Assembly: GCA_903813345.2 (NCBI GenBank)
Contig: CAIIXF020000001.1
Location: forward strand, 20,605,915 to 20,669,914
DNA: 64,000 bases
Direction: 5' to 3'
Source: Owenia fusiformis
Taxonomy: Eukaryota; Annelida; Polychaeta; Sabellida; Oweniidae
Shown here: positions 8,201 to 45,500 of the stretch, piece by piece
Layout of the letters: every line of letters begins with the position of its first letter
Numbering within the stretch: the first letter of the stretch is position 1
Translations under genes and position numbers: made by a program
Notes under the pieces: model-generated
What the model saw: the letters and a program-made list of their open reading frames with translations, nothing else
Database searches by the model: none
Told to the model about the DNA's origin: nothing

Positions 8201-10840
8201 TGCCAAAGCTAGCAGATACATTGGAAATAATTTCTAAACAGGGTCCTAAAGCATTTTACGATGGCTGTCTCACTGACAAAATCATCGAAGAACTAAATTC
8301 GTTATCGAAAGATGTAACTGCTACAAATGTTTCTGATAAGTATTTCACTAGAGAGGACTTTAGGAATCACCAGGTGAAGGTCAGGGAACCCTTTACCACT
8401 AGATTGAAAAATCTGACAATGTTTGCCCCGACAAGCCCTGCATCTGGTCCTGTGGTGGGATTCATGTTAAAACTTATGGAAGGTAACACTCTTTCATTTA
8501 TTTCATTAAATAGTTGCTTTGTTGAGATTTACTTGGATTTCTATAGTTTTTAATATACACATGGGTTAAGAAATTCACAAAGGAATAAAAAGAGCTTATA
8601 TGAAGACCTATAGAGATGTGTTGACATTTAGTAATATATCTGAACACATTAATGGCCTTAAAACTCAGTATTTAAGAAACACAGAAAGAAAAACATAACA
8701 CAGAAAAAGATAACTTAAGTGACAAGAAAGTAAACCCCATCATCCAATATAATTTTAAGCTAATCATGCATTGCTTGTTGTATAGGTTTTGATATTCAAG
8801 TGCCACCAGGAGGTAAAATGGACAATATCAGTGAAGCAAAAGTATACCACAAGATGGCTGAGGCTATGAAATTTGGGGTTGCTCATAGATTACAACTTGG
8901 TGATATACCTGATCTAAGTGTGAGTTAAATTATAATTATATTCTACTGTATTTGGTCTTTATTCATGTGCTAAGTACAGCATACTGTTTGCTAAAGTTGA
9001 ATATTCACAGATTATGCTAGTCTGTCTTGCAACAAGTCTCTCTGTCTTCCAACTCTTAGAGAAAATGGAAAGGTTAAATGTACAGTTGTAGGTCATTAAC
9101 AAACATTCTTTTTATTATTTTAGATCCTAGACAAAATGAAAGATGAGAAATATATTGATGAGATAAGGAAGAAGATAGTAGAGACATCCCATGATAATAA
9201 ATACTCCTATGCTGAGAAATTTGCCAAAGAGGATGGTGGAACTCTTCACTTCTCAATATTTGCTGGAAATGGAGATGCTGTGTCTGTCACCTCTTCTATC
9301 AATGCACCGTATGTTAATATATTATCTTAAATAATATATATACTATATATAATATTATACTGTTATTTTTAATGAATGATATTATTGTCTAAATTGTCAG
9401 TTGGCTTGCTATGTTAATATATTATCTTTAATAATATATATTGTATATCATATTATTATTTTTAATTAATTGTATTATTATCTACATCGTCAGTTGGCTT
9501 TGTTTTCAGTTAGTTTGTTCAATTCTATTTGTATGTACTTTATCATTAAAGAACTGTTAATTTGGATTACCAACTATGACTCACAGGTCAGCTTTAAATT
9601 ATGTAATGCTATTTTGAAATCAATTTTGCAGGTTAGGATCTTATCACAGATCTAGATCCACTGGTGTTATATTTAATAATATGATAACAGATTTCACATA
9701 TGATATACCACTTACCAGACAACTACTAAAACACAAGGTATGTAACAAGATATATTATTGCAAACAAATAAACAAGCAAACAAACAAGTGTATTTTAGTG
9801 GAAAGTGTCTGTTGTATTGTGCTATTCAGTAGAATTATATTTTGAGGTGTTGGCAAATAAAAAGGTCTAAATCATTTGAAAGACATTTTGTTATTTCTAG
9901 GATTTGCATGCATCTGTTGAATCGGAGATTTTAATTTTAAAATAATTTTGATTACAATTTTTAGTTCCATGAAGCAAATTTGATAGGACCTAGGAAGAAG
10001 CCCATCTCGTCCCAATCACCAACCATACTTGTAGATGACAAAGGAGAGGTCCGCTATGTAGTCGGAGGTGCTGGGGGTTTCCACATTATCAGTGCATTGT
10101 TACAGGTAATATTTACATTACTGATGATAAAAACTAATGATACATATTTTGAACAATGTGGATGTGGTAAATTAGTGCATTTAGTTTTATTGCATTTTAA
10201 GTGCTATATTATGATCTCATCTTGCACTGAGGTGTATGGGCATGCATAGCAAGAAATCTTGTCAATAATATAGAAAGAAAACCAAGAACAGATTAGTGCC
10301 ACATTTTGATTAGATTAAACAGATTTAGATCAACCATGTTAATAGTAAGTTGATTTTTTAATTAGGAAACTAAATAGCTCATGGACCAAATGTGTTATAT
10401 TTCAGGTTATAACTCGTATTTTATGGCTTGGGCAAGACATTAAGACTGCTATTGATATGCCTAGAATGACAAACACCCTAGTCTTCTATAGACTGAGATA
10501 TGAGAAGGAGTTTGATGTGGTAAGATAGTCAACAATAATTTCATATAATAAAGTGGAATGTTTTAAGGTAGAATCAGATGTGGAACTACTTTTTACTCAA
10601 ACTAACAAAGTTCTAGGGGATATACATGAATCGTGTTTAATGAATACAAAAAAATTAGCTAAAAACATACTTCTAATTCATTTCATATCTTTCCAGAAAA
10701 CCCTACGTTTGCTTAATTTGATGCGCCACAAGACTAGGCTTTTTGACTCGCTACCTTGTATTGCTCGTGTGGAGTGCATAATGCAGCATAATAATGGAAC
10801 AATTGAAGGCTATTCTGATCAAAGGAAATTTGTGACATAA
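5297..10840 (+). CDS. gamma-glutamyltransferase paralogue B
   Basis: Eleven plus-strand exons join in frame: 5543-5632, 6540-6640, 6792-6938, 7452-7653, 8145-8482, 8786-8919, 9124-9308, 9632-9737, 9965-10105, 10406-10519 and 10697-10840. They give about 567 codons, close to the human enzyme. A twelfth, 5297-5390, also splices in frame upstream; the true start is unresolved. Motifs are [18 protein letters not shown], the DARDMSP arginine, [28 protein letters not shown] containing the autoprocessing and nucleophile threonine, [13 protein letters not shown] (the SS pair) and GGAGG (oxyanion glycines). The usual NNExDDF motif reads NNMITDF, so its glutamate is missing while the final aspartate stays. 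The C-terminus ends SDQRKFVT rather than the common glycine-rich tail. I expect a cell-surface or secreted GGT; the altered motif may shift specificity. Confidence 0.92.
9310..9505. repeat. two-copy tandem duplication, about 101-bp unit, at a GGT splice donor
   Basis: TATGTTAATATATTATCTT begins at 9310 and again at 9411. Both copies continue through similar AT-rich sequence to a shared GTCAGTTGGCTT. The first copy overlaps the donor of the GGT-B exon ending at 9308. This is a local intronic duplication with no coding content. Confidence 0.7.
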
Positions 10841-13218: not shown

Positions 13219-16200
13219 ATGACTGTCTTGGTGAACATAGTGTTGTTCATCTGCGTTCCCTGTGCAGTGGCATACAGGGGACCTGTCACGCCTTTTATAA
13301 AGTCTGTGAAGAGAAACATGATGCATGGTGCAGCTATCGGGAACAACAATCCTGAAAGGCTTATAAACAATATCAAAGTATGGACGGACCTAAGGGATGC
13401 ATCTCGATCGCTGCTTTCCAATGCTATCCAAGAAGATCGGAAATCTAACCATGAGATTGGGAATGGCGGCATACGCATATTGGATCAACATCAGCATATT
13501 TTGCGCAATGTCAGCGGCAGCAATAGTCGACCTCGACGAAATCGAAAACTACACTACCAGGATATCACGGAACTCCGGCTCCTCTCTAGAGCTGTGGTTG
13601 CTATGGATGCAACGAGAGAAAAACCGATTCAAAGAAGGTTCAAAATGGTCAACAGAAATCAACACCGAAGAAGAGTCCAATCAGTCTCACGACCAGATAA
13701 AAATTCAGCCCCACGCAAAGATGGAAATTCAGCCCCAGGCCCCGATGAAAATTCAGCCCCATCCCCAGATGGAAATTCAGCCCCACGCCCAGATGAAAAT
13801 TCAGTTATACGGCCCGATGACGTGTCTGAGTTGTGCTGGGATCATTGGACACACCAACAAAGAGGGCTTGAACTGTTTAGATTGCACGAGTGGGCATTCG
13901 TTAGTAAGTTATCTATTTTTGATCTTTACGACCTATGGGCTATCCTGTATTTGTACTTATCCCATGGTTGCAAGGATATAGATCGAATATCACATGAAGA
14001 TATGAATGTGGATCAAGATATCATATTTTAGCAAAAAAAATTCTCAAACCATCGAATATCACTTTTAAACTATCGAATATCACGTCTTAAAAAGTGATAT
14101 TCGATGGTTTGAAAAGTGATATTCGATGGTTTCGAATTTTTTCAAAAAAATTTCTTTTTACGTTTTTTATTAATTATTTTCAAAAATATTTTTAAAAAAT
14201 TTCAAAATTTCAAAAAAAAAATTTTAACATTTTTTCACATTTTTTTCAATTTTTTCTCAAATTGTATTTTTCAACTTTTTTCGCTGATGATAATTTCCCA
14301 TGGGATAAACGGACAATCCTATGGTTTTTCAAAAATATCAATTATATCCACTCGTGGATACAAATATCTTCACTCATTCGCTGCGCTCACTCATGAAGAT
14401 ATCAATATCCACTCATGGATATAAATGATATTTTTTTAAAACCATAGGATATTCCTATAATATCGAACACTTACATGTATGCAAAAGTACGTACAATCCA
14501 AGAAAGTCACATTATTTTGTAATCTGCTCCTTTCTTTTATGCACAGTGGTAAAAGAGATGATGAACGGTAATATTTTACTCCTTTTTGCTTTTAAATTAT
14601 AAAACCCTGTATCTCTTTCTTTTTATCGCTACCACAAGGGTTTTGCCTCGTGGATGCTGAGTGCACGGAATTGTTATGATTGTGGCTTATTAAAAGATAT
14701 GCGTGACCTCTAAAAGTCCAAAAAGTCCTTCAAAAACCACTTTTTGAAATTAAAAAAGAAATTCACATATCACACTTTGATAACATTGGGTAAATTAAGA
14801 CTACAATATAAGCCAAAGTGGTTTAAACTTTATATGGGGACTTTATTACTTTATCACTAAATGTGAAAAGATTGCAAATATAGTTGATCCTTGTGTGAGC
14901 CCTATAATTATATACTTTGCCAAAATGAATATAATGGTAATTAAAATATTTTGAAAACATTGAATAGGTAAAATAGGAATATTATCATTAACAATAATGA
15001 CTTTTGAATTAAGATGGCATTTTCAGGTCAGAAATATATAATTCTTCACCATTATTGTTTTTTGTAAAAATGGCCACACGCAAATGGACCATCATACTTA
15101 TCAATATCAAATTTTCCTCCTATACTGTATACTCATTGCGATTATTTGAAAAAAATTTTTTTTATCAAACTCATCTTTTTGATGGTTGCATCTTGTGGCA
15201 AGCCGTTTAGCCCATTCATGTCACCTTTTTGAGTGCAGACAAGTAAAAATGACTATGTTGATGGACCATTCTAGTCTATAATGATGATGGGTCACTTCAT
15301 CGTACATTTAGTAACACCCCAGTCACATTTCCTACGACTGCCGTGCGGTCTATCATTTCTGCGGTCAGTAACATTTCTACGCTCGTCGTGGAATTTCTGC
15401 GGTCGGATACTTTTGCAGTCACATTTCCTACGGCAGCCGCGCGTCGAGTTTTTGAATTTCTGTTGATTTAACTTTAATTCATCTTTTTATTTTATCTACA
15501 TCGGTATAATTTATAAATGTGGTTTGTAGTGTTAGGACTGATATACTATCGAATAAAAAGTGCAAGTGAAACATAAGTTGCTGTGGTATCAGTTACCTTA
15601 CATCAAACTGTATACGTATTGTGTTGTGTTTACATCAAATATATGACCGAAAACTGACATAAAAACTGTTTCCAAAGGTACACTACCCATCAAACCCTAC
15701 AGCAGACGCAAGTCAACGGCAAACCCGACGTACGGCCACCGTTGGACCTTTCTGCGGTCTGGCTATGTTGATTTCTACGGGGACCGCAGAAATGAACAAA
15801 TATTATAACTCCGAGTTATAATTTCTACGGCTACCCTGTGGCCTGTAAAAATTGAATACGCCATATGGAGAGTCCGCACTTGGCGAGCGTAGTTTTTCTA
15901 CGCTCGCCGCAGAAATTCACTGATTTAATTGATCTGCGGTCGACGCACGGCCTTCGTACGACAAATGTGACTGGGGTGTAAGCTACCCCAACATAGGTTT
16001 TTGTGATTTTCTGGAGTTTTGGCACACACTTTTCGGCTTGTGAATGTTTGACCGTCGAGTCTACATGCACGTGCAGTCTTGTACCTGTGTAATAACACCC
16101 CAGTCACATTTCCCACGGCCGCCGTGCGGTCTATCATTTCTGCAGCCAGTACATTTTCTACACTGATTTAATTGATCTGCGGTCGACGCTGCCCTCCGTA

Positions 16201-19200
16201 CGACAAATGTGACTGGGGTGTTAGTCATCATGACCGGAATTTTCTTACTAGTCGGCCAATGCGTAGAGATGTTTGAATTAAGTCAATCAAAAGGCAGTAG
16301 ATAGATAAATCGCACTTGTGATCACTCATGAAATAAACGTGATAATATGGCCTCATTAATATTGAATATCCAAACCAACAGGACTTTTATCAATTATTTT
16401 GTACACCATTGCCATTTTATGGGCTTTCTTCAAAACCCGATTTGGTCATGAACAAGTTTTCTAAGAATTATAAAAGTACCAAGAATTCGGAAATTCGTGT
16501 CATAGCCTAATTATTCCAACGAACGAAGTTCTGTAGGGATATAGTGAAGCCCTCCGTCCTTCCGTCCGTCCGTCCGGAAGATAACTCGATTACAAGTCGA
16601 CAGATTTTCTTCATATTTAGTGGAAAGATGTATATTGGTGAAAAGTTTTACGCCAAAAATCTTATGTTTTTCATTTTTTCATTTATTAACTCTTTGAATG
16701 CCGGTGTTTTTCGGAATTGTTATGACGTCAAAATGCCACGGAAACGAAATTTTTATGTTTTTTCCACTCCATGATATTTCTTCCACTGGTATCTATCTTG
16801 ATGATATTTCAAGTGTTAAAATGCTTTATTTTCAAATATTATTATTTGAGATTTTGGTAGTATATTAACAACATCTATCCATTTCACATATATCCCGGGT
16901 TTTTCACCCTGACCCACAGGGGCCGTAAATAGGGGATTAGGAAAACAGTAATTTGCATTAATTTTGTGATGTTTTTGAAGTATAACTTTATTATACTGAA
17001 AAGAAAGGCAATTTAGAGTAGATTGTAAATATTGTAGCGTTTTTCTGATTTGGGCCTCAAAAAATTCAAAATGGCGGCCTAATGCGGGATTTCGCAATTA
17101 TTTTCTGATCTCTTGAAAGTATGGCTATATTATACTCAAATTGAAGGTATTTCAGAGTAGATCACAATTATGGCATTATTTTTCTGATTTGCGCCTCTGA
17201 AAATTCAAAATGGCTGACTAGAGCAGAAATTCGCCATTACTTAGAGTTATCTTGATAGTATGGTTACATGATACTACAATGATTTAAAATATTTATTGAA
17301 GGTAAGAGTAAATGGTAAATATTACATTGTGACTGTACAAATTGATGATTTATATAATGTTCGTTGGTATTTGCTACTCCGTGGAGTTGCCATTTTCTAG
17401 TTAGTATAGTTTACGATCAATGAAAACATGCTTTGCAGTGGACGATGCTCGTGGAAAAGTTCCCCCGGGAATGTTCGAGGGCAATCTTCATATGATTGGC
17501 AATTATGACGAGTGCTTAAGTGTCAAAGTCAACATGACCGAATATATTGAGACGATCCCCGACTCCAAAGCGCACTTTCGTGGACGATATTGTACGTGTG
17601 AGGCCACAATTGATATATCGTTAGAAGACTTAGGAATCCCCATTGATATACAGGTACTATGGCGAGAGTTGTCTGTCGTCAGATTTGCAGTTTGCCTATT
17701 AGTCATGTTATTTGTATTTGTATGCCAAATGCGCAGACTTAACCTAGATTGGAAGTGATATTGTTTTTTAAATACGGAAAAGTATTTTGCTTGGAAATGA
17801 ATTAATAAGTGACTTTTACATTGATATTGGTAATTTTGACATACTGTCTTAAAATTAAATTTAAAAATACACACATAATATGTGACCAATCTTCTACATA
17901 TTCGTAGCACTGGTAGAAAATACCCTAAAGTGCCCCAAGTAAAGTTTTCAAAGAATTTGGCTTATCTATTACTGAGAAATAACTCGTCAAATTGCTTCCC
18001 ATTTTTTGGTACAAACACTATGTAGTTCTCATTGCGTTGCTCCGGTATGGGATCTTTTGACATGCTATCTTGACTTCCTTAGTAGTCATGGCATTAATTT
18101 GATCGTTTTCATATTTTTGAACCTTGCTAATAATACCCTTGGGCTACTTTTGATATTCAGAAAATAATTTACAATTCAAGTTAGAATCGTTTGAAATTGT
18201 TTGCGATAACCTGCTCCTTTCAATGGGTGTCCAAGGATCAAATCTTTGCTCTTTTCACGACACTAGGTCAATCTACAAAAATATTTATGTCTGTCGAATT
18301 TCTTATCAGTTTGTACTTTCATTCGGCCAAATGTTTGAAGTTCGAATATTCTTATATCATTCTATTCTCCATATTAGCATTGCTTTAATTGCTAATATAC
18401 AAATAACAAGGTATGCATGTACTCCACCAGAGAGGGGAAATGTTTTTTTAAAGTTGCACTCATAGAAACTATGTATGCATGTACTGCACCAGAGAGGGGA
18501 AATGTTTTTTAAAATTTGCACTCATAGAAACTATTAAAACAAATGTACGGATATTAATTACAAAATCATAACTAGTTATAATGCAAGTTGGTCAGAGTAG
18601 GGCATACGTTTGTGTAGTTATTTTTATGATTTAGGCCAACCATGGCTGTTGCGAACCAAAAATAATTTGAACCGGGATGGCCTACTCGGTTATCTTCTGG
18701 TAAACTAATATACATGGATCAAAAGGGTTCAAGTAGTAACTTAAAGCCTCGCTATCCTTAATTTAGAAGAAAAAAGGAAAAATTAATCATTGAAACATGT
18801 TACTCACACTCTTAATGAAATATGATACAAAGTTTGAGTAGTATTTGCAGTAATATTAAACCAAGTTAAAATTAAAATAACTCATGTAAAACGGCATTAA
18901 AAGTTCAGAGATCATTAGTTGTGCATGCACATTTTTGACAAAGTGCATGTTTTAAATTACTCTTGATTTAAAAGATGGCGATACTTCTATAAAAATGAAT
19001 GTATCATGTAATACTAACAACTTCGCCATCTTTCATTGACATTGATGAAAACTTAATATTTAAAGTTTAACGGATCAAAAATATTTTTGATAACATATTG
19101 CAACCTTCGATGTGGCCCGTTTGAGCTGATTTTGGTGTCAAATGAAAGATAAAGTAATTATCATCAATCCATTGGAAATACTATGAAATTCAAACGTAAG

Positions 19201-22200
19201 ACTTTATTTTGCCACAAAATGTTGAAAATACGCAAAGTGGGCCTTTAAGTAAAGTGATTGTTTAGCGACAGTACTTTGAACAGGTTCGATCCCTAATTTC
19301 TTTTCCATAAGAATACAAATAAGCGTTAAGATCCGATACTTTCCATACATTAGAACAAAACAATATCTCACATGGAAATCAACATTTCCGTTCGTTCGTG
19401 TTACTCAAATACCAGTGACCGGATTTGGTTCGAACTTTATATGCTGATCCCTGATATGAGAGACACAGGAGCTCTTCTCGAGAGGGAATTTTCAAGTTGG
19501 CAGCTGAATTTCAAAATGGCTGCCATCTGTTTAAAAAGGACAGACTTTGATCTTTGATAACTCAAATACCAGTTGACAGATTTGCTTCAAATTTTATGTG
19601 CTGAGGCCTAGAGCCAACGGAGGTCCGCTCAAGAAGACATTTTCGAGACAGACAGAGTTTCGTCATTTTCGTAAAAATCGTAATCTTTGATGATTCATTT
19701 ACCAGATGACAGATTTGGTTCACATTTTACATTCTGATGCCTGGGACGAAGGGGCTCGGCTCAAGAAGAAATTTTCAAGATAGGAGCTGAACTTCAAAAC
19801 GGCCGCCATTTTTCGTAAAAAAACATTATCTTACCTTGTATTCGCGAATGAAACTAACACCTGTCGGCTACCGGATAAACCTAGTATTTTATGACCAATT
19901 CATTTAAATATGAATGGAATAGTGGCAGGTACTATTAATATTTAAATGAGTTTCCAATAAACTGAAGGATTAATTTATGCAAATCAATAGGTTAATCCGG
20001 TAGTCGATAGCCGCTATTTGCATTCGCGAATACAAGCTCAGATAACCGAAATACCAGTGGACGGATTTAGTTCAAATTTTACATGCTGATACCTAGGGAC
20101 AGAGGAGTTCTTTTCAGGAAGAAATTTTCAAGACCGCTATCATCAAAACATATTTTGTTTAGTTGAATTTGCTACTCCATGGAGTTGCTGTTTTCCAGTT
20201 CGTAAATGGTTCAACTACCAATTTTGAAAACGTATTCAGATGATCTTTGACTATTCATTTCAGCCAATATTCTGGATTGGGGAATGTATGCCTTCTACCT
20301 GCAACGAATCTGAAATCAATGCTATACTTAGAGAGGAACTTTATGAATCTGATGATTTCTTCGACAATGGTAACGCTGACCACTTTCCCAAGATCAATGA
20401 CTATGATAAATTAACAGTTCTACTTCAGTGATTTAGAATGTTTATTTTATGTTTAATATTTTTGCCTTGCTTGCATTACTTAAACCTGGATCTCATTCAC
20501 TTTTCAGTACTTGGTGACATATTACAGTTCAACACAACATGTCCTCGTGATATGAATATATTTGAAAACCCCAGACCATCGGCTGTTGGAGTGTTGTAAG
20601 TGTTATAGAGTAACATTAAAAAGTGTGATAAACAATGATAAGATAGTCGTACGAGGCCCGATCAGAAAGTAAGTAACCAACTGTTCTAATTTTTCATATT
20701 TCAATTTCCACAGATGATGTAGAAAATATTAACCTATTAAACAAGACCAAGTACAATGGGTTAGCGTCAATGCCATTGTTATGGCTGTTGTTATGGTGAT
20801 AGCCAAAGTTCGCATCGATTGCAAGGAGGATTGGCTCCCAGGATCGAAACTCGATATTTTCCAACAATGAAAACGTCGAAATGTCGTTATTTTCTGAAAT
20901 TAAAACCGACTATAAATTCAAAATAAACAGTTCAAAAGATTCGAACCAATATCTCGATCATTTCTTGTGAGTTTTGGAATTTTTCGTTTGGAAATAAGAC
21001 CAAAATTCACGATTTAAATGTTGAAGTGAACAAAATGGCGGCTGTTTGAATTCGAATTTTGTATTACGACATACCCATATATGGGACAGAATATCGGTGG
21101 TGCACTCTGGGAGCCAATCCTCCTTGCATCGATTGCGAATATCGAATTTGTTTGCATCGTAGATATCCCAAATAAATGCAACCTGTTAACTCCTTGAAGA
21201 CTGGTCATTTACTAGATATAGTATTTGAAAAATATTCATCACGGGTTCGCTTTTTGAATGTTTGAGTTAACATATTTTGAAACTTTGTCCCAGTTTTGAT
21301 CTATTTAATGCGCCAGATTTCTATTTCAGAATTGCCATCCTATTTTTAACCGTATTTGTATTGATTGGTACAATATACGACCAGATCGTAAGCTTGCTGA
21401 GTGAACCTTCTCCGAACAACTCCTCATCTGCTATCGAAGAACCTAATAAAGGACACTACAACAAGGGTTACTATTCGGAAAATGAGACGAATGGATCTGC
21501 AACCATGTTAGGCTATGCGACTACAAATGGATCTGCCACCGCTAATGGCTCCGTGACCACGAATGGCTATGGGACCGACTATAATCCTACCTCAGGACCT
21601 GATATTTCTCGGAAAGGTATGGGCAAATAACAATTCTTTTTGGCAAGAGCAAATCTTAATCATTAGACTACGATGGCCCGTAAATCCGTCTGACAGAATT
21701 GTATCGGAATTCGGAACGACTACAAATGACGAAACCAAAAATGATAAAGTATAATTTTTGTCCTCGAGTACGATATGGATATTAAATGCTCCAGATTTGC
21801 TGCACAATATACTCATCTCATTCTCAATACGCCGCAACATAAATAAGGTGCTCAACATGGATGTGGTTGAGAACGGTGTCCCTGCTTGTATCAACGGTAT
21901 CCGTGTACTCAGCATGGCTTGGCTCATCCTTGGCCTTTCTTACATCCTTGGTGTTCTCTATGCCGAGACATATACAACACGTGAGTTCATTTGTTTGACA
22001 CTTTGGGCTCAGTGTCAGTGAAAGCCAATTAATTGACAGAGCGTTTTATGAACAATCTCTCATGAAATAACTGAGATTTCACGTTTACTACATCGCTCGA
22101 AATTTACTTTTTAGCGTAGGCTAGTAAAGACTATCAATATGACTTCCTAGAATAGGGAAGCTATGCTCGAGTCAAATATCGCGCCTTTTAATCGGAAATG

Positions 22201-30860: not shown

Positions 30861-31211
30861 TTAAATATTGAAAGAGATCATGCGTCTTCTAAGGTGCTTT
30901 GCATGCGTCTTTTCCAACGGGCCTTGCGTTTTCTTAATCCAAGGGGGCCTTGCGTTTTTTTTAATCCAAGGGGGGCGTGCGTTTTTTTTAGTCCAAGGTC
31001 GTCTTGCATATGCCATTATCCAAGGAGGTCTTGCATCTTTCTTCTCGGCCGAAGAGTGTTCGAGAGATATGTTCCAAGTATCATTTAGCATTGAGATAGC
31101 GTCAGCCTGTGTAGATTTCAACTTCACTGAATTTACTATGAGAGAGTTACTCAACTGCAAAAAAGGTGCAGTTATTACCATGATGACAAATGCCATGAAC
31201 CATTCCATCAT
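30861..31211 (-). CDS. candidate secreted peptide (neuropeptide-like) precursor with NARPPWI repeats
   Basis: A 116-codon ORF not recognised as any family. Residues 1-23 start MMEWFMAFVIMVITAPFLQL, a plausible signal peptide. After a spacer with an NIS glycosylation motif (residue 47), repeats separated by lysine pairs follow: KK at 57-58, DARPPWIMAYARRPWT at 59-74, KK at 75-76, NARPPWI at 77-83, KK at 84-85, NARPPWI at 86-92, KK at 93-94; RRR lies at 108-110. This is the plan of a prohormone cut by dibasic convertases; no glycine precedes the KK pairs, so the peptides would not be amidated. Units 3 and 4 differ at three bases, all silent (CGC/AGG arginine, AAA/AAG lysine), suggesting selection on this frame. 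A one-base slip ends the pattern after residue 94. The alternative is a chance-open 27-bp minisatellite; other frames are also open. Confidence 0.45.
   Translation of the reverse strand: MMEWFMAFVIMVITAPFLQLSNSLIVNSVKLKSTQADAISMLNDTWNISLEHSSAEKKDARPPWIMAYARRPWTKKNARPPWIKKNARPPWIKKTQGPLEKTHAKHLRRRMISFNI
30930..31037. repeat. 27-bp minisatellite, four units
   Basis: Read on the minus strand the units start at 31037, 31010, 30983 and 30956, each of the form AAYGCAMGVCCCCCTTGG plus nine bases. Degenerate further units (ACGCAAGGCC, ACGCATGCAAAGCACC) continue to about 30890 in a shifted phase. It encodes the PPWI repeats of the 30861-31211 ORF. Confidence 0.85.
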
Positions 31212-31845
31212 TATTTTTGTTGGCGTCCTCTGATGACTCGGACTTACCAGTGCAGAATTACCAAATGCATGCAGAGCTCATAGATATACCCTTTGACTAA
31301 AAACAATCATCGTTTTATTACCCTTTGATGATTCAATTTCGAATTTTATATCTGCATTACGTTGCAATAATTATTACGCGTACCAAAATAACGTTTTATA
31401 GTCTAATCACAAACATATGATAAAATATCCATCAATATAAAAAGCAAGTCCATTATTTCGTATGGTTTTACAAAATTATCTTGTCATAACATGACATAAT
31501 TATATGCACAAAAGCATAGCTAGAAATGACTTTATTACTCCGGAATTTCAGGATGAAAATTCAAGACATCGTATTTTATTTAGATAGAATAGAGGTAATT
31601 ATAAAACAATCATAATTACTTTTAACAGATATGAACCTTAACGTAGGCTGGAAATCTTTTAAATTAGTACCGTGTGTTTGCCAAACAGTCGATACTAATT
31701 AAATAAAAATTAGAATAAAAAGTATTTTTGGTGTCTACAGAAATAATTGCCTGGTAGTCTAATGTTGTCTCCAGTAAGAAATTCCAGCCCCCCCCCCCCA
31801 CTCTCTTTGCACCAGAGAAAAAAGTGTAATCAATGCAGAAATATG
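31212..31845. other. no gene recognised
   Basis: Presumed 5' flank of the minus-strand peptide ORF. CTGGTAAGT near 31245 on the minus strand is a good donor and could end a 5' non-coding exon. Otherwise AT-rich sequence and a C-run near 31790. Confidence 0.35.
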
Positions 31846-31962
31846 CAGGCCCGTAGCCAGGGGGCGGGGGGTCGATAGATTTTGGACCAAAATTGTCAAA
31901 AGTGAACCCCCTGGAATCAAAGAGTGACCCCCCCCCCTTGGCAAATCATGGCTACGGGCCTG
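31846..31962. mobile_element. 117-bp hAT-like MITE
   Basis: Starts CAGGCCCGTAGCCAGGGGGC and ends TGGCTACGGGCCTG: 14-bp inverted termini of CAGG...CCTG type. It is flanked by a direct repeat ATATG (31841-31845 and 31963-31967). Inside are G and C runs only. CAGGCCCGTAGC ends resemble non-autonomous hAT elements; the flanking repeat is 5 bp rather than the usual 8. Confidence 0.75.
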
Positions 31963-31967
31963 ATATG

Positions 31968-33559
31968 ATTTTGAGTTCTGCCGTCATTAGCATGATAATG
32001 TATTCACTTTTTGGTAGTAACACATGATTTAATAAAGCAATCAAATTTTCAAAAATATTTCTGTGCTGTTAATTTTGGAAAATACACTCTTTAAGGCCTT
32101 TAAGGGGTTTGATTTTCATGTCGGACATTCTATGTTCCTGTGTCTGTGATATATCAAGTAGAATAAACGTATAGTAAGAACTATCCCGGCAGACGTTTTA
32201 TTTATACAAAATGATGTCCTTAGTCCAAGTATACTCCAAGGCTCAAAGAAAACCTGGACCCCAGTAATTAAATTCCCCGGGTCCTACATCACTAATATTT
32301 GCTTTTTCGTCAGTGACAATTACTCCTGCATCTTTACAAATTATTCCCAATTTTATATCTTCATATAGAAATTTAATATGTTCATTTCATTTATGTACTT
32401 TTGATTCTTATACTCCTTAATATTTGCATGATATATCGTGCTAATCTCATCAGCAACTCCAGGTAATTTGCAAAGATAATGAACAGTATTTTAAAAGTCG
32501 AAGGGAGTAAGATGTATAAATTGAAAAGCAAATTTATCGTGTGATCAGCCAATCACGAAATAGCTTGGAGAGGGGGTATAAAGAATTGAGTGAATTGGCC
32601 AATATCCCGACATACTTGCTTTGTGGATGAACGTAATAAAGGATTGGCTACGAGAAGTTAGAAGTAAAATTTGATGCAAGATTGACTAGAAAATGCAAAT
32701 CATATTGAATGAATGATATAACCAATCGAAACAGCATATAATGGACTATACTCTCCCGAGATCCTGACGCTGTACGTTATCAGGAAAGGGACGAAATCTG
32801 GGATTAAATATCTTATATTTTGGCGTTGGAATCGGACCAGACAGGTTGTTTTAACAAGGGACGTGGCCGAGTCACGTGGTATGATTCAATTTAGGACTAT
32901 TTCAATTGTTTTTATTGTTTAACTTGTGCATATTATTGCTATGATCTATGCAGTTTGTTTCAATGTTTGTCATATATTCAGAGAAATCATGATACTCGAC
33001 AGCATCAACCCGAAAACCGAGCAATGAAGTCATCATTTCGCAAGAAAGTCACGTGCTTTGAAAACCCCACATTTCCCCCTTCACAATATGTAACTATGAT
33101 TATTGTGATTTTGCCCTTTATTTTTTGCTTGCTTTTTGATCTTGCTTTGTCGTGGCAATGTCCATCACATCACTTTCTACTGTTGTCAAACTGTCTGAGC
33201 AGAAGAACTTAACGATTTACTGGATCATCACGAGATATGATGTAAACAAATATTCAGCAAATGACACATCCCTTGCAAAACAATACAGATGACAAAACAG
33301 TTGTTTGACAGTGAATTCTGACTGTCAAAATTCTTTTAGTTTAGTGTAAAGTGAAACATTTGTGTTTATTTTGATGAATTATCTCTATGTGCTTTCAAAA
33401 TTGTATATATAGATCTAATTTTAATGTTTAGTGACACAATTTATGTATTTTCAGATTCTGATTGTGTAGATTGCGATCTCAGCAAGGACACAATCAGAGG
33501 CAGTTGGATAGAAATGCATGTTTAGTCCTCTATCTCTGAGGCTATGTTGCATAGCCGTG
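31968..33559. other. upstream region of KANSL1
   Basis: No coding gene recognised. A TTTTCAG acceptor at 33448-33454 precedes the first coding exon, so 33455-33559 is probably 5' UTR joined to a non-coding exon further upstream. Which sequence is the promoter cannot be fixed by eye. Confidence 0.4.
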
Positions 33560-36500
33560 ATGGCTCCCGCACTGACGGAAACAGCTACTTCGCACTTGAA
33601 ACTGCAGCCATCATCTTCTATAGTGGAAAGTCCTACTGAAGGGGATTGCCACTCTCCATCCACCATTGCATCACATCGTCTGAACAATAAAATTGCGCTG
33701 ATTGGTGTCAAATCTCGCATTCTCCAAAACAGACTTACACACATTAATTCAGAGTCATTATCAGCCATTAAGTTCCCACCCAAATTACTAACTCCAGGCC
33801 TCCAGACAAGACTCGCATCACTGTCTGAACTGTTTCCTCCTAACACAGAATCGAAGTTCATCATCCAGGATTTCGAATCTGCGGAGGAGAGGCCAAAATC
33901 ACAGTTAATTGCTATCCAAAGCAAAATGAACAACCTAACAACTAATGGTCGTAATGGAGATTCAACTACATTGGTACCTGAAACTGTTAAATTGGTGAAC
34001 AAACTCAAAGGTCAGCAAATGGGTTTGATACCAACAGACACAAGTCAGTTGAATAAAACAAATTGCACAAACAATGGTGTACCAGGTCAAGCCAGTGAAC
34101 AACAAACTGCAACCTCATCTGCTCAACCTTGTTCAAGTAGACCGTTAGCTAGTAGCTCAATATCCCAGTCTGAAAGCTCAGATTCCTTGCTACCAACTGA
34201 TACCTCCTCTTCAAGTAGAACATTACCAGACACTAAAGTAAAAGATCCAGAGCCAGTGGACACAAATGTACAGATGAAAAAACAACAACAACACTTAGAT
34301 AAAAGAGCAGAACGCCTAGCCAAGCGTATTCGAAGATTGCAGTCCCATCAAACTATTACCCATGTTCGTACACAACTATCTGGATTTGTAGATAATCAAC
34401 ATAAAAATTTAGAATGTATGGCCAAAGCTATCAAAGTTCCCCCAAGTAACAATGCAGATCTGCACTCAGAACTCCTTATAAATGAAGACATTAAAAATTT
34501 ATCAACGGCAGCACTTGTTAATTTAGTTAGAAGGTTGCAATCTCAACAAGTAACATTGCGGCAAAGGCTGACAAACACTCATACCGGGAATGAAAATAAA
34601 GAAGTGGTGAAACTTGATGAAGAGACATGCGCTGAAGCAAGTCGAGTCTCCTCAAATCTTACAGAAAGGCTACGGCATCTTGAATCAGAGTTAGACTCTG
34701 ATGCAACAGATGAGAGCTCTGGGGGAGAAAGCTGTGATGAAGATGAATTCTTCGATTTCGAGAAACGCCCTACTATACCATTGTAAGTAATCTTGCTTGC
34801 ATTGAAGACAGTTTACTTGCCAGAAACTTTTTGGATTAAATACACTGCCATATTGCCATAGAAACAAATGGTTTTAAAATAAGGATTATCTGTGATTTTG
34901 GAGTGTTTCTGGCAAGGGTCTGTTGAATTTAAACCTTGAATATTCATATAAATCAAATGTGTTACACTACTTGTTAGATTAAAGATAATGGAATTGAAAA
35001 CTAACTCCTTCCCCTCCTCACTGGATAATTCACCTATTTCAGCATCCTAGTTTTTCCTCTGCAGGGGTGATCAATATCTTATCCTTATCTGAGATTATAA
35101 TGCTTATCTCAGTGATATCATGATTTGTTCTTAATGTCTCTGATGGGATAATTAACATATCATTTAGTTGGACAAACACCAGTGCTAAAACTGTTGCTGT
35201 TGAGAAGTATGACTTTGAATGATAATTTGGTGGAAGGAATGAACACTGTGAAATGAATATATTTACTCTATCTTTGTTCTTTTATTCTTTTTCGATGGGT
35301 CAGTCTTATTTAACCATTGGCTTTCTATCAATCAATCATTGATATCTGTAATGAATTTGAATGAAGCATATTACAACAAATTTGTAGCTTTATTTTGGGA
35401 ATGATAATTATTAAAAGGAATCATCGTTAAAGTTTCTGATTCATTGTCATATTTATTTATTTATGACTACTGAGCTCATTATCTTGCATATGTTAATAAG
35501 ATAATGTTTACTAAGGTTGCATATAAATTCATTTTTCGAAATATCATGTCAGCTATTCAGTCGTGAACAACTTGTTTGTTGGAGCCATTGTTTATATAGA
35601 CATATACCAGGTACATGTTATGTGAAATAATTTACAATTTCTGTATTATTTGTTAAGGGGTTGATTGCAGCATGTATGACAAAGGTCATTGTGCCATGTA
35701 ACTCCTTTATGTGTAACTGTTCAAAACCTGTTAGCACCTGTCACATTGTTTCATAGGATAATATGTTCAAATTGCTATGAAAATATCTTTAAAAATATAC
35801 TTATCAATCAACATATTTTTATTAGTTTTATATTTATTTGAAATTATGGTACATTTGGAATTTATTGATTTTTATGTCACCACCAAAAGTGGTGACATAT
35901 TGTTATGGTCTCCGTTTTTTTGTGACGGCGTCCGGCGGTTGGAGGTTGGCGTCCGGCGTCTGTAACAATTTCTACAACTTCCTATAACTTAACAAATACT
36001 GTTTAGACTGACTTCAATTTTTTTCTAAATCATCTACATGTTCTCAGAAGTTCAAATCTGACTTTAGATTTGACATTTGACCTTCAATGACCTTCTCAAG
36101 GTCAAAAAGGTCTTTTTTCAACTTGCTTCACATTGACTAAATTTTTTTTCAAAATCATCTACATGTTCTCAGAAATTCAAATCTGACTTTAGATTTGACA
36201 TTTGACCTTCAAATCTGACTTTAGATTTGACATTTGACCTTCAATGACCTTCTCAAGGTCAAAAAAGGTCAAAAAGGTCTGTTTTCAACTTGCTTCAAAT
36301 TGACTAAATTTTTTTTTCAAAATCATCTACGTGTTCTCAGAAATTCAAATCTGACTTAAGATTTGACTTAAGATTTGACATTTGACCTTCAATGACCTTC
36401 TCAAGGTCAAAAAAGGTCAAAAAGGTCTGTTTTCAACTTGCTTCAAATTGACTAAATTATTTTTTCAAAATCATCTACATGTTCTCAGAAATTCAAATCT

Positions 36501-39500
36501 GACTTGAGATTTGACATTTGACCTTCAATGACCTTCTCAATGTCAAAAAAGGTCAAAAAGGTATTTTTTCATCTTGCTTCAAATTGACTAAATTTTTTTT
36601 TCAAAATCATCTATATGTTCTCAGAAATTCAAATATGACTTTAGATTTGACTTAAGATTTGACATTTGACCTTCAATGACCTTCTCAAGGTCAAAAAAGG
36701 TCAAAAAGGTCTTTTTTCAACTTGCTTCAAATTGACTAATTTTTTTTTCAAAATCATCTACATGTTCTCAGAAATTCAAATCTGACTTTAGATTTGACAT
36801 TTGACCTTTAATGACCTTTTCAAGGTCAAAAAGGTCTGTTTTCAACTTGCTTCAAATTGACCAAATTTTTTTTTTCAAAATCATCTTCATCTTTTCAGAA
36901 GTTCAAATTTGACCTTACAAGTTCTCAGAAGTTCAAATCTGACTTTAGATTTGACCTTTGACCTTCAATGACCTTCTCAAGGTCAAAAAGGTCTTTTTTC
37001 AACTTGCTTCAAATTTACTAATTTCTTTTTCAAAATCATCTTCATGTTCTCAGAAGTTCAAATCTGACTTTAGATTTGACATTTGACCTTCAATGACCTT
37101 TTCAAGGTCAAAAAGGTCTTTTTTCAACTTGCTTCAAATTGACTTAATTTTTTTTTCAAAATCATCTACATGTTCTCAGAAGTTCAAATCTGACTTTACA
37201 TTTGACCTTCAATGACCTTCTCAATGTCAAAAAAAAGTCAAAGAGGTATTTTTTCAACTTGCTTCAAATTGGCGAATTGGTATTTTCAACTTGCTTTAAA
37301 TTGACCAAATTGTTTTAGGTGGTGACATTTTGTCATGTTAATGCCTTGTATATTACTTTAAATTGGCCAGAATGTAGTATTTACAAATATATAAAATCAA
37401 AATATAAAATATAACTATACTTAATTATATTATTCCATGTTTGGTTAGATTTACTATATATGGTTAAAATTTGTTGGAAACAAATAGCCAGCCGGTCTGG
37501 AGTATTACCCAGATTTATTACTAAGAATTGGTTAAAGTGATGTCATTAGTGGTTTGAGTTTGGCTTGATTATATAGATTTTTCTGAATGAGTTTAACTGG
37601 AGCATTGCCAGTTTATTTGTGGAAGTACATTTACATTTATAAGATCAAATAATATTTGACTGTTTGTACCACTTCCACATTCTAATCCAATATATATGCA
37701 TTTCCATTTAATTGTATACTTTATTTTAGAAAACTTAAGATTTTTACAATACATCATTCATTCAAATATTGTTACCATTTTTATTAGGGAGAATTTAAAC
37801 ATCCCCCCATTTTTCTAATAACTTCACCAATTTATAACATATCATGGATCTTTTGGGAGATATTATATTGAGATTGTAAGGAATATATTAATAGGTCAAT
37901 TGTTACCCATACGCAGAGTCTAGTTATAAACTACCCTCAGCCTAGTATAGACTATATTACAGTTTAGCAGCCCCCCACGACGACTGGTGCCTGTGACAGC
38001 CCAGGTCATAAATCATTTCAAACTTACCACGCTGACCTTTTCTCAACCAATCGGTGAATTGGAAGGAACACACACTAAATGCGTTTTCGATGAAGACCTC
38101 TGACTGGCTCTGTGAGAGATTTATTGTAAACTGAAAGAGTAAAGGGGAAGCTCTCTTTTAAGAAGTGATGTCGAACGGATGCAAAGGGTAGTCAATTGTA
38201 CATATTGCTTGTAATTTTGTCAATCCCTATAGACCCGATTCTGCGTTTAATCTATCTTATCAATAATTTTGGTTTTATACCTGTATCATACTAACTTTGA
38301 ATATGTTTTCCATCTTGTATGAGGTAAAAATGTGATTTTAGTCATTGGCTGTTCTTTCAATATCTAAGCACATTATAATTGTTACTAGATTATGTGAGGT
38401 TTTCTCAACAAATAAATACCATATGGTTTTAGCATCTGGGTTCTAACATTCAACATATAAACATCTTTGAGATCGGTAAACATTCAAGAGAATCTCTATA
38501 TAACTTATAAATGTCTATTGTGAATGTAGGTCTGGAATGAAAGAAATTTCATTGATAACTACTCTAGTGAATTGAAGTCTTATGAAAGATCATGATGAAC
38601 TGTTATACTCTATACTCTATACAGAGACCAGATATACAAACAACTTCTAGTTTTCTGATCATTGAATCGAAAACTTCTATCACCATACTTATTTTCATGC
38701 AAAATTAAGGAGCGTTTAAATTAGTTTAAAAATACATAAATCTAATAAAGTATTTCTGTTAAGCAGTTTTTATCGTTAATTTTATACTCTTAGGTACAAT
38801 ATGTACAGTGTTTCATTTTAACAGGCAGCATACCCAAGTTACCCTTACATTTGTAGAAGTCATTCATTTCAAAGAGTAATTGATAAACTGTTCTTTACAG
38901 TCATATTAAAGCTTCTTACGTCAATGTTGTTATCCACTCCCTCTCTCCATATGATTCTGTCTTGTTATCAATAAACTCCAAGGTTACTTTTATGTTGTTA
39001 CTAATGAGTGCTTCAAATGTTACATATTTTGTTTATCTATAATTTGCTCAATAGTTATCATGAAAACCTATTTATTCATGACTCTAATTTAAAATTTATT
39101 TATTATATATTTAATCTCAAATTAAAACATAGATTGTAAATTTATGGGAGGTTTAGTATTTGTTTTCACAGCTTGCCATGTTTAGTGTTAAATCTGACCT
39201 ATACTTGTGTATGTTGATTACCAATATGTTCATCGTGGACTTTGGCCATATTATCACCTCAGTTGAGAAAACCTATATCTGAAATGTGCAGTATCAATAG
39301 GTTTATTGATTAGACTCGATATTTGATATACAGAGTATGGTGATACATGAAGTCCTTAGCTGACTGATTCTAATATTTAAACATGTGGAGGGTACATTCT
39401 TGAATTGCCCCCCTCCAGTCAATGTAGAATTAGCCACTGCATATTCATAATGAATTTTAAGCCCTGTATACAGTATAAATAAATTTTCTATCGTTTCAGT

Positions 39501-42500
39501 TGTTTCAATTGTTTCAATCAGTTCAAGTTTCAATGCTTACTTGCATCATTTCGAGCATTTCAATCAATTTGCCTTTGAAATTAATTTAACATTTCACTGT
39601 TTCGCCGTTTTTAGCATTTCAATCAATTCGCCTAAGCTGTTCTCACATTATCTTTCATTTCAACTATTTCGGCCTTTTCACCCCCCCCCCCCCCCGCCAG
39701 TGTATACACCCCTTTAGGCTGGCAGTCATATTTTAATCATACTGCATTATAATTTGTCATGCAATTGTAGAGTTGCCAGTAATGTTAATTTGCAATAAGT
39801 AACCTAATTCAATTGCCCAGAATCAATGGCATGCATTAATAGTTTTCAAGGGAATCATTCTAGTCGAAGTAGATCATGAGATGTTTTTTGTTTAATGTCA
39901 TACTATGCCATAATACTTGAGGCCACGAAAACATAGCTAATTAAGTATATTTGCCCATGTAAATTAATGAAAAGTTGCCTCAATTCTGATTTATTAGTCT
40001 CTCATTATCTGACCTTTTTGATAGAAACTACATACCTTCAAGAGATATCGAAGTTTGGAGACACCAAAATGAGTCCCCCAACATGAAGAATTTTCAAAAT
40101 TAGCGTACATGTACTCTTAATATATAAAAAGATGTAAATTATTTTCTTTGTCCTCAATGTGTTTAAGTACTTTGAATATTCCAAAATCCAAAAAGTGTAA
40201 AAGTAGTTATCATGCATATGTGCATGATGTTCTCATTTCATCTAATGTCTGTTCAAAACATGTATTTATTGATCTTGATATTGTGTTTTGATATGGATTT
40301 TTAGATCGTTGATCTCTTTCTATACTTGCTATCAATATGTTTTTGTTTCTTCCATGTATGCACCATATTATATCTGCTCCAACCTCATATATTTTTGTTT
40401 ATTTCATGTACAGACAAAGGCGGGCAGAGTGGAAGTGGGCAGTTGATCGGGCAGCCATTGCCTCACGGTGGACCTGGCTCCAGGCTCAAGTATCTGACCT
40501 AGAATATAGAATACGGCAGCAAAGTGACATTTATAGGCAAATACGAGCAACTAAGGGCTCAGTTGTTCTTGGAGAATATACACCACCTGATGATTTACTT
40601 CAAGGCAAAGCCAAATCAAACAAAAAATTATCTCCTTTAGAAGCTAAAATTGCCAATCTTGAAAGACAGAATGAATTGTCTCCGTGTAATATATCAACGC
40701 TGCTCAGCAATGTTGATAAGCAGTCTACGAAGCTGACTCAGTCATTAGGTAATGTCTATTCCCCTGTACAATGTTCTAATAGGGGTCGTAATCAGACTCC
40801 ACCTGCCAAACCTATCAATGGAGTAATAGACCCTGGATCCTCACAGTCTAATCCAACACCTAGCATAGACACTACAGATAGCAAGACCCCAGCAGTAAAC
40901 CCCCCATTAATAACAGTAGGAGATGCATCCCCTTGTATTGATAACACTTGCCAATCAGCACGGTGTCGACCAGTGCGCAGCTATAGAAAACGGAAATTGC
41001 TACGAACTGCGGGGTTGCATCAGTTAAATCGTAAAGCAGCGCGGGCATCTACTATAAAGTGTCAGTGCTACCCACCATCTACCCCTTGTGCAATGTGTGG
41101 GGGAAGGTACAACAATAAACAAGCTATGGACTCTGACAACATGCCATTAAATGAGAGAGTGGGCCTCCTTGATCCAGCGTTCCATCCAGTACTCTCATTC
41201 TCACAAGGTAAATTAATATCATTATTGAATTATCAATATTATGAATTACAATTTGCTGATTTAATCTCATGATATTGCCATGGTTTCCTGGTGGATGTTA
41301 ATTTTATATAAAAGGCAGTGATCTCCCACTATTAAGCAAGTGGGGACCCACCTGAGATATTGACAATAAGCTTATGCCCACCTGAAAATCCATTTGCACC
41401 TACTTGAAAATTGGCATATTTTGTTTGGTCTGAAGTGTGAATATGAGAATCTTGCAAATCTGTTGAGAATACTGCAAGAATTTTAATTTGGGTTATCTAG
41501 AATCAGAATAGACACACAAAATTCATTGTTTTGAAATGCTACTGTGTCCTTATTCCTTACCTTCCCCTTTCCAATCATAAATTCAAAGCCTAGGACAAAA
41601 CAGCATTTGATGATTCTTTTTTGGCCCCTCTCAACTATTAAATGGTTGATTACTTTGTGTAGTTCATGGTGAATACTAAGTTTCTGTGGTTTGATAATTT
41701 AATACATGTATTTGATGGTTGCTATTCATTAGTTAACAGCATTGCTGAAAGGACAGCCTGTGATTGTGATAAACATATCTAGTTGCAGACTGATACACTT
41801 GATAAAAGTAATTATGCTGCATACATCATACATACTTATTATATCTGAACAGCAGCCACACCCTTTTTACAGAAGTCTAGCTAGGTAGTTTTGCTCTGTA
41901 GAATATTAATGTATGGATGCCTTAAAGGAATATGAAACTAAACATCTCTAAATCTTTATGTCCAAGAAAACATGGCAAGTTATATAATTAACCCATACAA
42001 ATGAAATTAGTACAGCCATCTTTATTGGGGTGTTTCGTAAGAGTGATTACTAAATGCAGTTTTCAGCAGTTTTATTGTCATTAGCTTCCCCTCGTATCAA
42101 ACTTTGATACAATAGTTTTTGGCATAATGTGAAACTCAGTTACTGACAAAGATATCATAGATGCTTTGATTAATTTTTGACTGCAAAGCAGCCCAGGTCA
42201 TCTTGGTTTCTCAACAGACCAGGTAGACTTTTTATTTTAATACTAGAGGAAAGATTAGGGAGTCCATATTCTGCTGCTGCAAAGCTAGGTGTTAAATTGA
42301 ATTTTGCCTAATTTGCATTTTAGAATTTCAATGTGTATTACACCTTGTAGATCAAGATGGCTAAATGAAGGAATGAAAATGGTTGAAATAACATGCAAGA
42401 TTTGCTCTAATACATTTAAGTAAATGTTCTTGCACTGCAGTCAGAATTGAAATTAGCTAAACAATCTTTTTCTTGTTACATTCAGGAATTAATTGAGGTA

Positions 42501-45500
42501 TGATTATGATATCATCTACAGTTCTACACATTTGTTCCAAATATATGGTTAAAATAAAAATGGTATTGACAGCTCAGGTTCTGCGACCTGACTGGCGAAT
42601 AATATGATTTGATACTGACATCAATCTTTTGTTATCATCCATTCAAAATGTGACAAGATTTTATGAAATAATAATTTTTTTACTTGTTTTAATCCATTTA
42701 TTGTTCTCCAGGAATAAACCGACATTTATCCTGGATCGTAATTACACGAATGAGCCATTGATTTCCAATTCTGTTGTGTGCACAGAAATAGGTTATACTG
42801 AAACAGGCATTTACAATATGCCAGACATTTTATCAAATAGTTGAGTACATTGGTCTGTAACTAAGTGTTCTGGGTTGAAGAGTTATGGCTATTCTGCCAC
42901 TCACTTACAATTTCATGTTACCCTGATTACATGTATGATAATGGGACATGTTCCCCATGGTTGTTTCTGGCGCTTAAACCCGACTGTTAAACACTGGCTC
43001 ATTTCCTCTTAGTTAGAAATAATCGTTAAATTCTAGGAGTTGACTACCTGAAGCCATGGCCTAAAATTCGCATGGAGCCCTTTCAGTTCATGGGTTATTG
43101 TTAGGTTCCATGAATTACATTAGTCTTGGTTAGAAGAGGTTTTAAGGGAGAGCTGCTTTGCTTTTCAATCAATTGTGTTCAATACCCTAAGCCATATTAG
43201 AAGCAATGTGAACTTTTCATGTATGTATGGTTTTCAGAAATATAATCCTACACATGGTGTACTGACGCATAAATCCAGGCCCAAGTAATTAATAGAAATC
43301 TGAAAACTCAAGTCATCTCATATTCCACCTTTTCTGGTGTGCCCGATTGTTAAAAGACCTAATAAAAAGTTATTGTAAACATTTCTTATGACCACAAATC
43401 TATGGGTGACCTAAATTTGTTTTTTTCAACTTTTTGGTAAAATAACAGCTGCTATGCTGAACTTGTTAACTTCCAGATGTTGTATTTCAGGATGTTTCAT
43501 TTGCTTTGAGGTGGCAAACATTAATGAATTGTGACATGTTTCAGATGTTCCTTTACCAGTGCACTTTGAGTCCTTGTTGAAGACTGGGGAGTGGCAGAAC
43601 AAACCATCACCTCGTACTGAGAAAAGGTAAAAACATTTTTTCCATTCTGATATTACTTCCTGGTGGAGTACAAGTCATGTGGGTTTTATATAATGAAAGT
43701 ATGACGTGTCACATTCATCCAATGATGTATTTCATGATGTGTTCAAATGATTCGTGTCCCCATATTTCCTACCTGCATCTTTCACATCAAGTCTAGGCTG
43801 TCACAAAAATAAAACCATGCCCTGCCAAAAAAGAAATTGACCGACCATCAATTTGAAAAAGGCAGGGATTAGAACCAGACAATTGTTTTAGCCTGGCCTT
43901 GTAACAAACGATTCAAAATGTTGTAGTCAAAATTACTTCCATCAAAGAGTGATTAGTGCTGTTATCCTAATATATCAGCATTTTTATAAACAATTCTTCA
44001 CTCTCCAAACTTCTCTGCTTCAAGCATTTTGAGTCATTAGAGGATTATTTTTGTTCAGCTGGATAGTGCTTGTTTTATTTGGAAATTTCTAGAAGATGGG
44101 AAAGATGTAGCCTTGCCCAAATTGGTCTCTTTTACTTGGGCAAGGCTAGGGAACAAATTGAAAGGTTTGTTTTCAGTTACAAAACCACATGCACATTTTA
44201 GATTCTTGTTTGGATTCATGTTTACAATTTTTTATCATACTTTTACAAAGGTGCTTTATTGTTGTCATCTTGTTAATTTTATCATTATCACATCATTTTT
44301 AAAGGAATCCAGTACTACATTGTGCTATCATTATTATCATCAACAATCAGTCACTTGTTTTGACCAAACAAAATCTAGTATTATACTGTAATTAGGTCCA
44401 GGTACTATAGTATTACATCAATTGCACATGATGATCTTAATTTGAGATAAGTAATTGCTTTCAATCATATGCAATCTTATCCAGGCTGGGAGTCCTATTT
44501 TAAAGCTGTTTATATTCCTACATATGTAGTCATTAATCAAGGTAGCAATATAAGGTGTGGTGGAGCACAAGATAACCAAATCCTCCAATCAGAATATTGT
44601 TTAAAGCTGGACATCGCTCCAAAACGCAATATGTTGACATATATTGTTTTTACACTTTTAAGCTCTAATATAAAGTTTATGTAAATAAAAATTGTTTTTT
44701 TCTGCGTTATATCAAAGAACAATCATTTAGTTAAAAAAAAAAAAGGAGAATACGGGATTCGAACCCGGGCCTCCCGCGTGCTAAGCGAGAATTGTACCCC
44801 TAGACCACCGTCTTCTAATGAATGTTGGAAGTAATTAAACGCTACTTATTTTGAATGCTATGATTCGGAAGTGACGTCACGTTCTTCATTTAGAAACTTT
44901 TCCAAAATCATATCGTCGGCGCCGATCGAAGCAATTCAATGAATAATCTTTGAAATGACACATTTATCGTAAGTATTTCTACACAAGATTTGCCCCATTT
45001 GTTCATCATTCTATAATCTTTCATTAGGCTCAAAATGATAAAGTTCACCCCCGAAACAACCCAAGGATTGCGTTTCGGAGCGCAGTCCAGCTTTAAGTCA
45101 AACAACTGGACAAAATTCTTTATTTTCTGTTATCAGAGGAAAACTTTTTTCTTTCAAGTTTATTAAAAAAAACATGCACTTCCAAAAACAGTCCTTCCTC
45201 TCATCACAATATATTGAAGTATTCCCACTATACATTTTTTATTGTCTAGTTATCCTCAATGGGTGCTAGTGAGATTTTCATTTTCACAATTTCCATCATT
45301 CTACTGAGTTCAAATAGGATTTGTGGATACAAGCTTATTTCCAAAATCTGAACTGGGTGCATCAATGCCAGGAAGATCACTTTATAATAATAAGCCACAA
45401 TACTCTCAATTATAGTATGATCCGTAAAATGAAGCCTTCTGATTGGTCAGTTCTTGTGCTGTGCCAATCTGTATTGCTACTGAGATTGTCCCCAGTGATC

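Follow-up and report, generated by a model that had tools for sequence, protein, structure and literature searches.

The locus raises the question of whether a short open reading frame (ORF) in the annelid Owenia fusiformis, laid out like a neuropeptide prohormone, is a gene or a chance frame through repetitive DNA. The ORF lies in a window of 64,000 nucleotides (the whole stretch of DNA that was analysed; positions are those of the window unless a contig is named), which is part of contig C1 in a genome of 498 Mb and 525 contigs. A sequence-only reading of the window, made before any database search, had proposed a peptide precursor here, with lysine-separated repeats behind a signal-like N-terminus and a frame kept by selection.

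Layout of the ORF and of the 27-bp array

The minus-strand ORF at 31211-30861 is present as described, with 116 amino acids plus a stop, a hydrophobic N-terminus and four in-frame repeats. It reads MMEWFMAFVIMVITAPFLQLSNSLIVNSVKLKSTQADAISMLNDTWNISLEHSSAE, next the four 27-bp units, and finally KKTQGPLEKTHAKHLRRRMISFNI. The translation bears out the reported placement of the KK pairs, one ahead of unit 1 and the others behind units 2, 3 and 4; the unit peptides have no amidation glycine, and there is no KR between units. The features of the locus are the following.

30861 to 31211, minus strand: ORF with hydrophobic start and in-frame repeats (sequence reading; Pfam, PDB and own-genome searches)
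31143 to 31211, minus strand: signal-like N-terminus, residues 1-23 (MMEWFMAFVIMVITAPFLQLSNS), hydrophobic core score 2.79
31017 to 31043, minus strand: unit 1, KKDARPPWI (ORF translation)
30990 to 31016, minus strand: unit 2, MAYARRPWT, degraded and without the leading KK (translation and unit comparison)
30963 to 30989, minus strand: unit 3, KKNARPPWI (ORF translation)
30936 to 30962, minus strand: unit 4, KKNARPPWI (ORF translation)
30888 to 30935, minus strand: degenerate gapped units 5 and 6, out of the repeat frame (KKTQGPLEK...; from alignment, limits approximate)
31155 to 31247, minus strand: possible 93-nt in-frame intron, GTAAGT ... TTTTTTGCAG (perfect donor, with acceptor match)
31395 to 31400, minus strand: TATAAA, a possible TATA box by consensus match alone, 189 nt ahead of the start codon
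30880 to 31233, plus strand: overlapping hydrophobic ATG ORF of 117 amino acids, core score 1.91 (ORF reading)

Units 1-4 follow each other at exact 27-bp spacing and free of gaps, unlike units 5 and 6: unit 5 lacks one base in a C run and has a shortened A run, and unit 6 has two gaps in the alignment, so that the frame slip noticed earlier after residue 94 is real. The array is called as a tandem repeat by TRF (row 30919-30998, period 27, score 125), among 18 rows for the window, some of them overlapping. Minisatellites are recognized by head-to-tail DNA units irrespective of frame, and both the TRF array and the gapped, out-of-frame units 5 and 6 fit this description. Units 3 and 4, with the trailing KK included, differ at three bases and at no residue, in agreement with the three silent differences (CGC versus AGG for arginine) already recorded. 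For unit 1, the silent AGA, CCT and ATA codons are found as reported, but the unit additionally has GAT versus AAC, with one replacement (D/N). Of the hallmarks of proneuropeptides (PMC3890597), repetitive structure is present in the ORF, and homology searches gave none.

Genomic surroundings and searches for relatives

Two plus-strand genes flank the ORF. One has an NRF domain, matched within 17405-17755 at E 4.6e-11. The other has a PEHE domain match within 49206-50036, with E 7e-7 and a bit score of 30.2 that falls short of the curated cut-off (34); we take this gene to be KANSL1-like, and its first large ORF begins near 33.5 kb. A plus-strand ORF of 282 amino acids, probably the beginning of the NRF-domain gene, has a hydrophobic start and contains a 24-bp coding-frame repeat (SAPxPDxN) at 13681-13804; a Pfam scan of this ORF yielded no match. 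Two ORFs of the presumed KANSL1-like gene are separated by a complex tandem array (36208-37271) whose periods are close to 148 and 284 bp. Near the start of the window, gamma-glutamyltranspeptidase exons are matched at 845-1249 on the minus strand (E 2.9e-19) and at 8128-8550 on the plus strand (E 1e-23), and because the strands are opposite, these are probably two genes. Near its end, a Mos1-type HTH match (61673-62221, minus strand) belongs to the remains of a mariner-like transposase (60974-62221), the later part of which is resembled, by eye, by an open minus-strand stretch at 60974-61354. One of the genome matches to a degenerate ARPPW-type DNA pattern (L010; see below) and a nearby stretch at ~31.75-32.0 kb presumably are mobile-element fragments as well. 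A transposon origin of the 27-bp unit was considered and rejected, as nothing connects the unit to these two.

In the genome at large, contigs C1 to C12 were matched at multi-megabase coordinates. The homeodomains of C1, as we assign them by diagnostic residues, are of the Lox5, Lox4, Lox2 and Post2 types in this order, with a Post1 type farther down. The Hox cluster has at its posterior end two homeodomains that we take to be Post2-like, which share a strand and are separated by about 350 bp (C1:17970454-17970975, locus L046). Outside C1-C12, a single open frame of 1717 amino acids contains four homeodomain matches (C262:14791-17163). The published genome of O. fusiformis is described as having 505.8 Mb in 12 chromosome-scale scaffolds and a cluster of 11 Hox genes on chromosome 1, Post1 lying downstream of the others (PMC9977687); the layout seen here agrees with this, although the two assembly sizes are slightly different.

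The ORF appears to be solitary in the genome. A protein search of the genome with the ORF retrieved itself and one weak stretch only (E 2.86, 28% identity, with an internal stop), and in the corresponding DNA search the locus matched itself only. When as many as 3 mismatches were allowed, the pattern of the 27-bp unit had two matches in the genome, units 4 and 3, although matches missing from such a search are no proof of absence. A degenerate DNA pattern of the ARPPW type had eight matches: units 1, 3 and 4 account for three, and the remaining five are solitary, with stops close by and no repeat. A Pfam scan of the ORF found no family at E up to 1, in line with the lack of a non-neuropeptide Pfam domain that is used to recognize proneuropeptides (PMC3890597); the best PDB match had E 0.11, and none of the seven pattern matches in viral contigs was confirmed. 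In the collection of papers searched, ARPPWI, ARPPW and NARPPW were not found as strings, RPPWI occurs only in two papers with titles on phage-display peptides and gastroschisis, and no paper combines two of PPWIKK, RPPWL, PWIKK and neuropeptide, which agrees with the earlier remark that no family with an RPPWI core is known.

Start, splice signals and codon use

The length of the ORF by itself is ordinary. A third-order Markov model trained on the noncoding DNA of the window yields 28 chance ATG ORFs of at least 116 amino acids in 2 Mb, or 0.9 per 64 kb, and 4 of these 28 have a core score of at least 2.0. The same score is reached by 4 of 36 ATG ORFs from noncoding DNA with a length of 60 amino acids or more, a set that excludes ORFs overlapping known exons or the region of the candidate itself. 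The candidate, at 2.79, is above all 36, but the margin is slight because the next two score 2.78 and 2.69. Its n-region is acidic, with one glutamate and no basic residue, which is unusual for signal peptides, and S-x-S precedes a possible cleavage after residue 23.

The codon score of the candidate, 0.061 bits per codon, is close to the bottom of the range of 18 known coding pieces (0.053-0.335, 17 of them above the candidate) and is reached by 3 of the 36 noncoding ORFs; for the N-terminal 56 codons it falls to 0.015. Training used a small set of 2260 codons, which contains 16 of the 18 pieces scored, whereas two phosphagen-kinase pieces were scored but are absent from training. One of the phosphagen kinases of the genome best matches the arginine kinase 4rf6 in the PDB; a search for COX1 gave no match.

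The putative intron at 31247-31155 would delete the start codon together with residues 1-19, that is, most of the signal-like segment. Of the 33 GTAAGT sites that the window has on its two strands, 3, the site of the candidate included, have an acceptor of this kind at 50-160 nt. Downstream of the stop, ATTAAA first occurs at 29787 and AATAAA at 29760, 1.1 kb away. The splice pair also allows a different gene structure, in which the repeats would be a later exon following the acceptor that ends at 31155, the MMEW segment would be intronic, and the true start and the signal peptide would come from an upstream exon. In favor of this, the repeat frame continues in phase 0 from the acceptor TTTTTTGCAG, and the open stretch of the FMRFamide repeat exon of the same genome likewise lacks, by eye, an evident signal peptide. 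However, a scan of the minus strand from 31157 to 45000 (13.8 kb) for ATG stretches that have a phase-0 GTRAG donor within 45-300 nt and score 1.6 or more for the hydrophobic core found no signal-exon candidate, where about 0.5 would be expected from other parts of the window, and the near exon ending CTG/GTAAGT has no in-frame ATG. We regard this structure as highly unlikely.

Changes among the units and the explanations compared

On a tree of the four units, 15 base changes produce 6 residue changes, and such a silent bias has P 0.003-0.007 under neutrality (simulation, kappa 1-4). Neutral arrays match the bias in the best of the six frames in 5.6% of the cases, and in 2.2-2.7% when only open frames are considered. 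These tests replaced a star-tree test of all four units (P 0.0001-0.0013), which was set aside because changes common to units 3 and 4 are counted twice in it. The earlier inference that selection has kept this frame is a suggestion and not a result, with P 0.003-0.007 for the frame itself and 2-6% over six frames.

In pairwise comparison, units 1-4 have 17 residue per 44 base differences, a ratio of 0.39. Without unit 2, units 1, 3 and 4 have 2 per 15, but this omission was chosen post hoc, with the data already seen, and no weight is put on it. The FMRFamide precursor of the same genome, used as a control (23 scored copies), has 94 residue per 759 base differences, a ratio of 0.12 in the true frame compared with 0.54-0.85 in the other five frames. 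Two other repeats of the window in plus-strand ORFs gave ORF-frame ratios of 0.60 (13681-13804) and 0.35 (21511-21576), so that a low ratio is no sure sign either way.

The silent bias is stronger in the named minus frame than in the other five frames. It fails, however, to pick out one strand cleanly because an open frame of the opposite strand is also somewhat biased (star-tree P 0.013). That other frames are open had been pointed out previously, and the plus-strand ATG ORF of 117 amino acids (30880-31233) confirms it. Its openness and hydrophobicity, and the P value of the plus repeat frame, could be taken to mean that this ORF is the coding one, or the locus might encode a micro-protein, secreted or in the membrane, other than a peptide precursor. 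For the 15 base changes, however, the two open plus frames have 8 and 10 residue changes and the minus frame has 6, and the minus ORF has no family match in Pfam; we regard these possibilities as very unlikely.

Comparison with annelid repetitive proneuropeptides, namely the FMRFamide precursor of this genome and those in passages of the Platynereis report (PMC3890597), reveals both likeness and difference. The candidate resembles them in its short repeats, KK sites and hydrophobic start and, if unit 2 is omitted, in its low residue change per base change, but it has only four in-frame units, one of them degraded, in an array that leaves the frame, and it lacks the amidation glycine and inter-unit KR. 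The WI precursor of Platynereis is described in the same passages as MIP-related and non-amidated, with the motif W-x6-7-W-[G/I/L] and an orthologue found only in Capitella (PMC3890597). The peptides of the candidate would also be non-amidated, and three of its four units end in WI, but its spacing across units is W-x8-W and NARPPWI contains a single Trp, so that it does not conform to the motif; membership in the WI/MIP family was rejected. The FMRFamide exon (L054, C6:23.756-23.757 Mb) contains 23 scored RFMRFGK copies, and in 18 of the 23, K comes next (GKK), so that KK sites do occur in known precursors of this genome, although those copies mostly have KR at their other end as well. A separate MIP-like W...WGKR array (C6:18745860-18746530) and runs of GWGKR (C5:24995208-24995248 and 24998873-24998913), both recognized by eye in searches in which a backward control also had 16 matches, are likely MIP and RGWamide-type precursors. 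Immunostaining of FVamide, RYamide, RGWamide and MIP in Owenia is covered in passages of PMC10880339.

The best explanation, and in our judgement a fairly probable one, is a chance ORF through a noncoding 27-bp minisatellite. About six degenerate 27-bp units would lie, untranslated, between the NRF-domain gene and the KANSL1-like gene. Since the unit length of 27 is divisible by three, a unit free of stops remains so in all its copies and extends the frames that pass through the array; a chance joining of an AT-rich, hydrophobic-coding stretch to the array would then suffice for a precursor-like ORF, its KK pairs being the translated A-rich run of the unit. What can be seen directly is the array, its unit length, the frames open on either strand and the units out of frame, whereas the absence of translation is what we infer. 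The minisatellite accounts for these features and for the A-run lysines. Also in its favor are the gaps of units 5 and 6, the equally long opposite-strand ATG ORF, the near-bottom codon use, the start-removing GTAAGT/TTTTTTGCAG pair and the lack of a relative in the genome, Pfam, PDB and viral contigs. The candidate nevertheless differs from a plain minisatellite in having one frame with a mild silent excess, and the gap-free units 1-4, the FMRFamide-like ratio of units 1, 3 and 4, the top hydrophobic start (by 0.01) and a codon score matched by only 3 of 36 noncoding ORFs also speak against this explanation, under which the modest silent excess and the good hydrophobic start remain coincidences.

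Both of these would be accounted for by a genuine lineage-restricted proneuropeptide, an alternative that we regard as rather unlikely. The protein would be secreted via its signal peptide, prohormone convertases would cut at KK and a carboxypeptidase would trim the lysines; the products, similarly tentative, would be two NARPPWI peptides and one longer DARPPWIMAYARRPWT peptide, all non-amidated and acting as receptor ligands. The in-frame silent bias (P 0.003-0.007), the highest, if narrowly so, hydrophobic start of 37 compared ORFs and the KK after 18 of 23 scored FMRFamide copies are compatible with this reading, as are the species-restricted, repetitive, non-amidated proneuropeptides of Platynereis in the passages on them (PMC3890597). 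It requires, however, that the degradation of unit 2 with loss of its leading KK, the exit of the array from the frame, the acidic n-region and the splice pair that would take out the start are all harmless, and neither a relative or paralogue, nor an amidation glycine, nor an AATAAA closer than 1.1 kb past the stop (29760) was found. Of the prohormone plan initially proposed, the anatomy and the silent excess hold, but with no relative and marginal codons the status of a gene is not established. The weights given here, the larger to the minisatellite, a smaller one to the proneuropeptide and the remainder to variants, are a judgement and not a computed posterior.

A still more specific proposal, which we consider improbable, is an oweniid-specific family of non-amidated NARPPWI peptides that arose de novo by in-frame expansion of a 27-bp unit behind a hydrophobic segment turned signal peptide. 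The lineage of Owenia is sister to the remaining annelids. If the ORF is a gene, it would add a lineage-specific peptide and possibly a case of a peptide precursor born from repeat DNA. If it is not, it shows how a minisatellite in AT-rich DNA can mimic a prohormone when its unit length is a multiple of three, which calls for caution in the mining of peptides from sequence alone.
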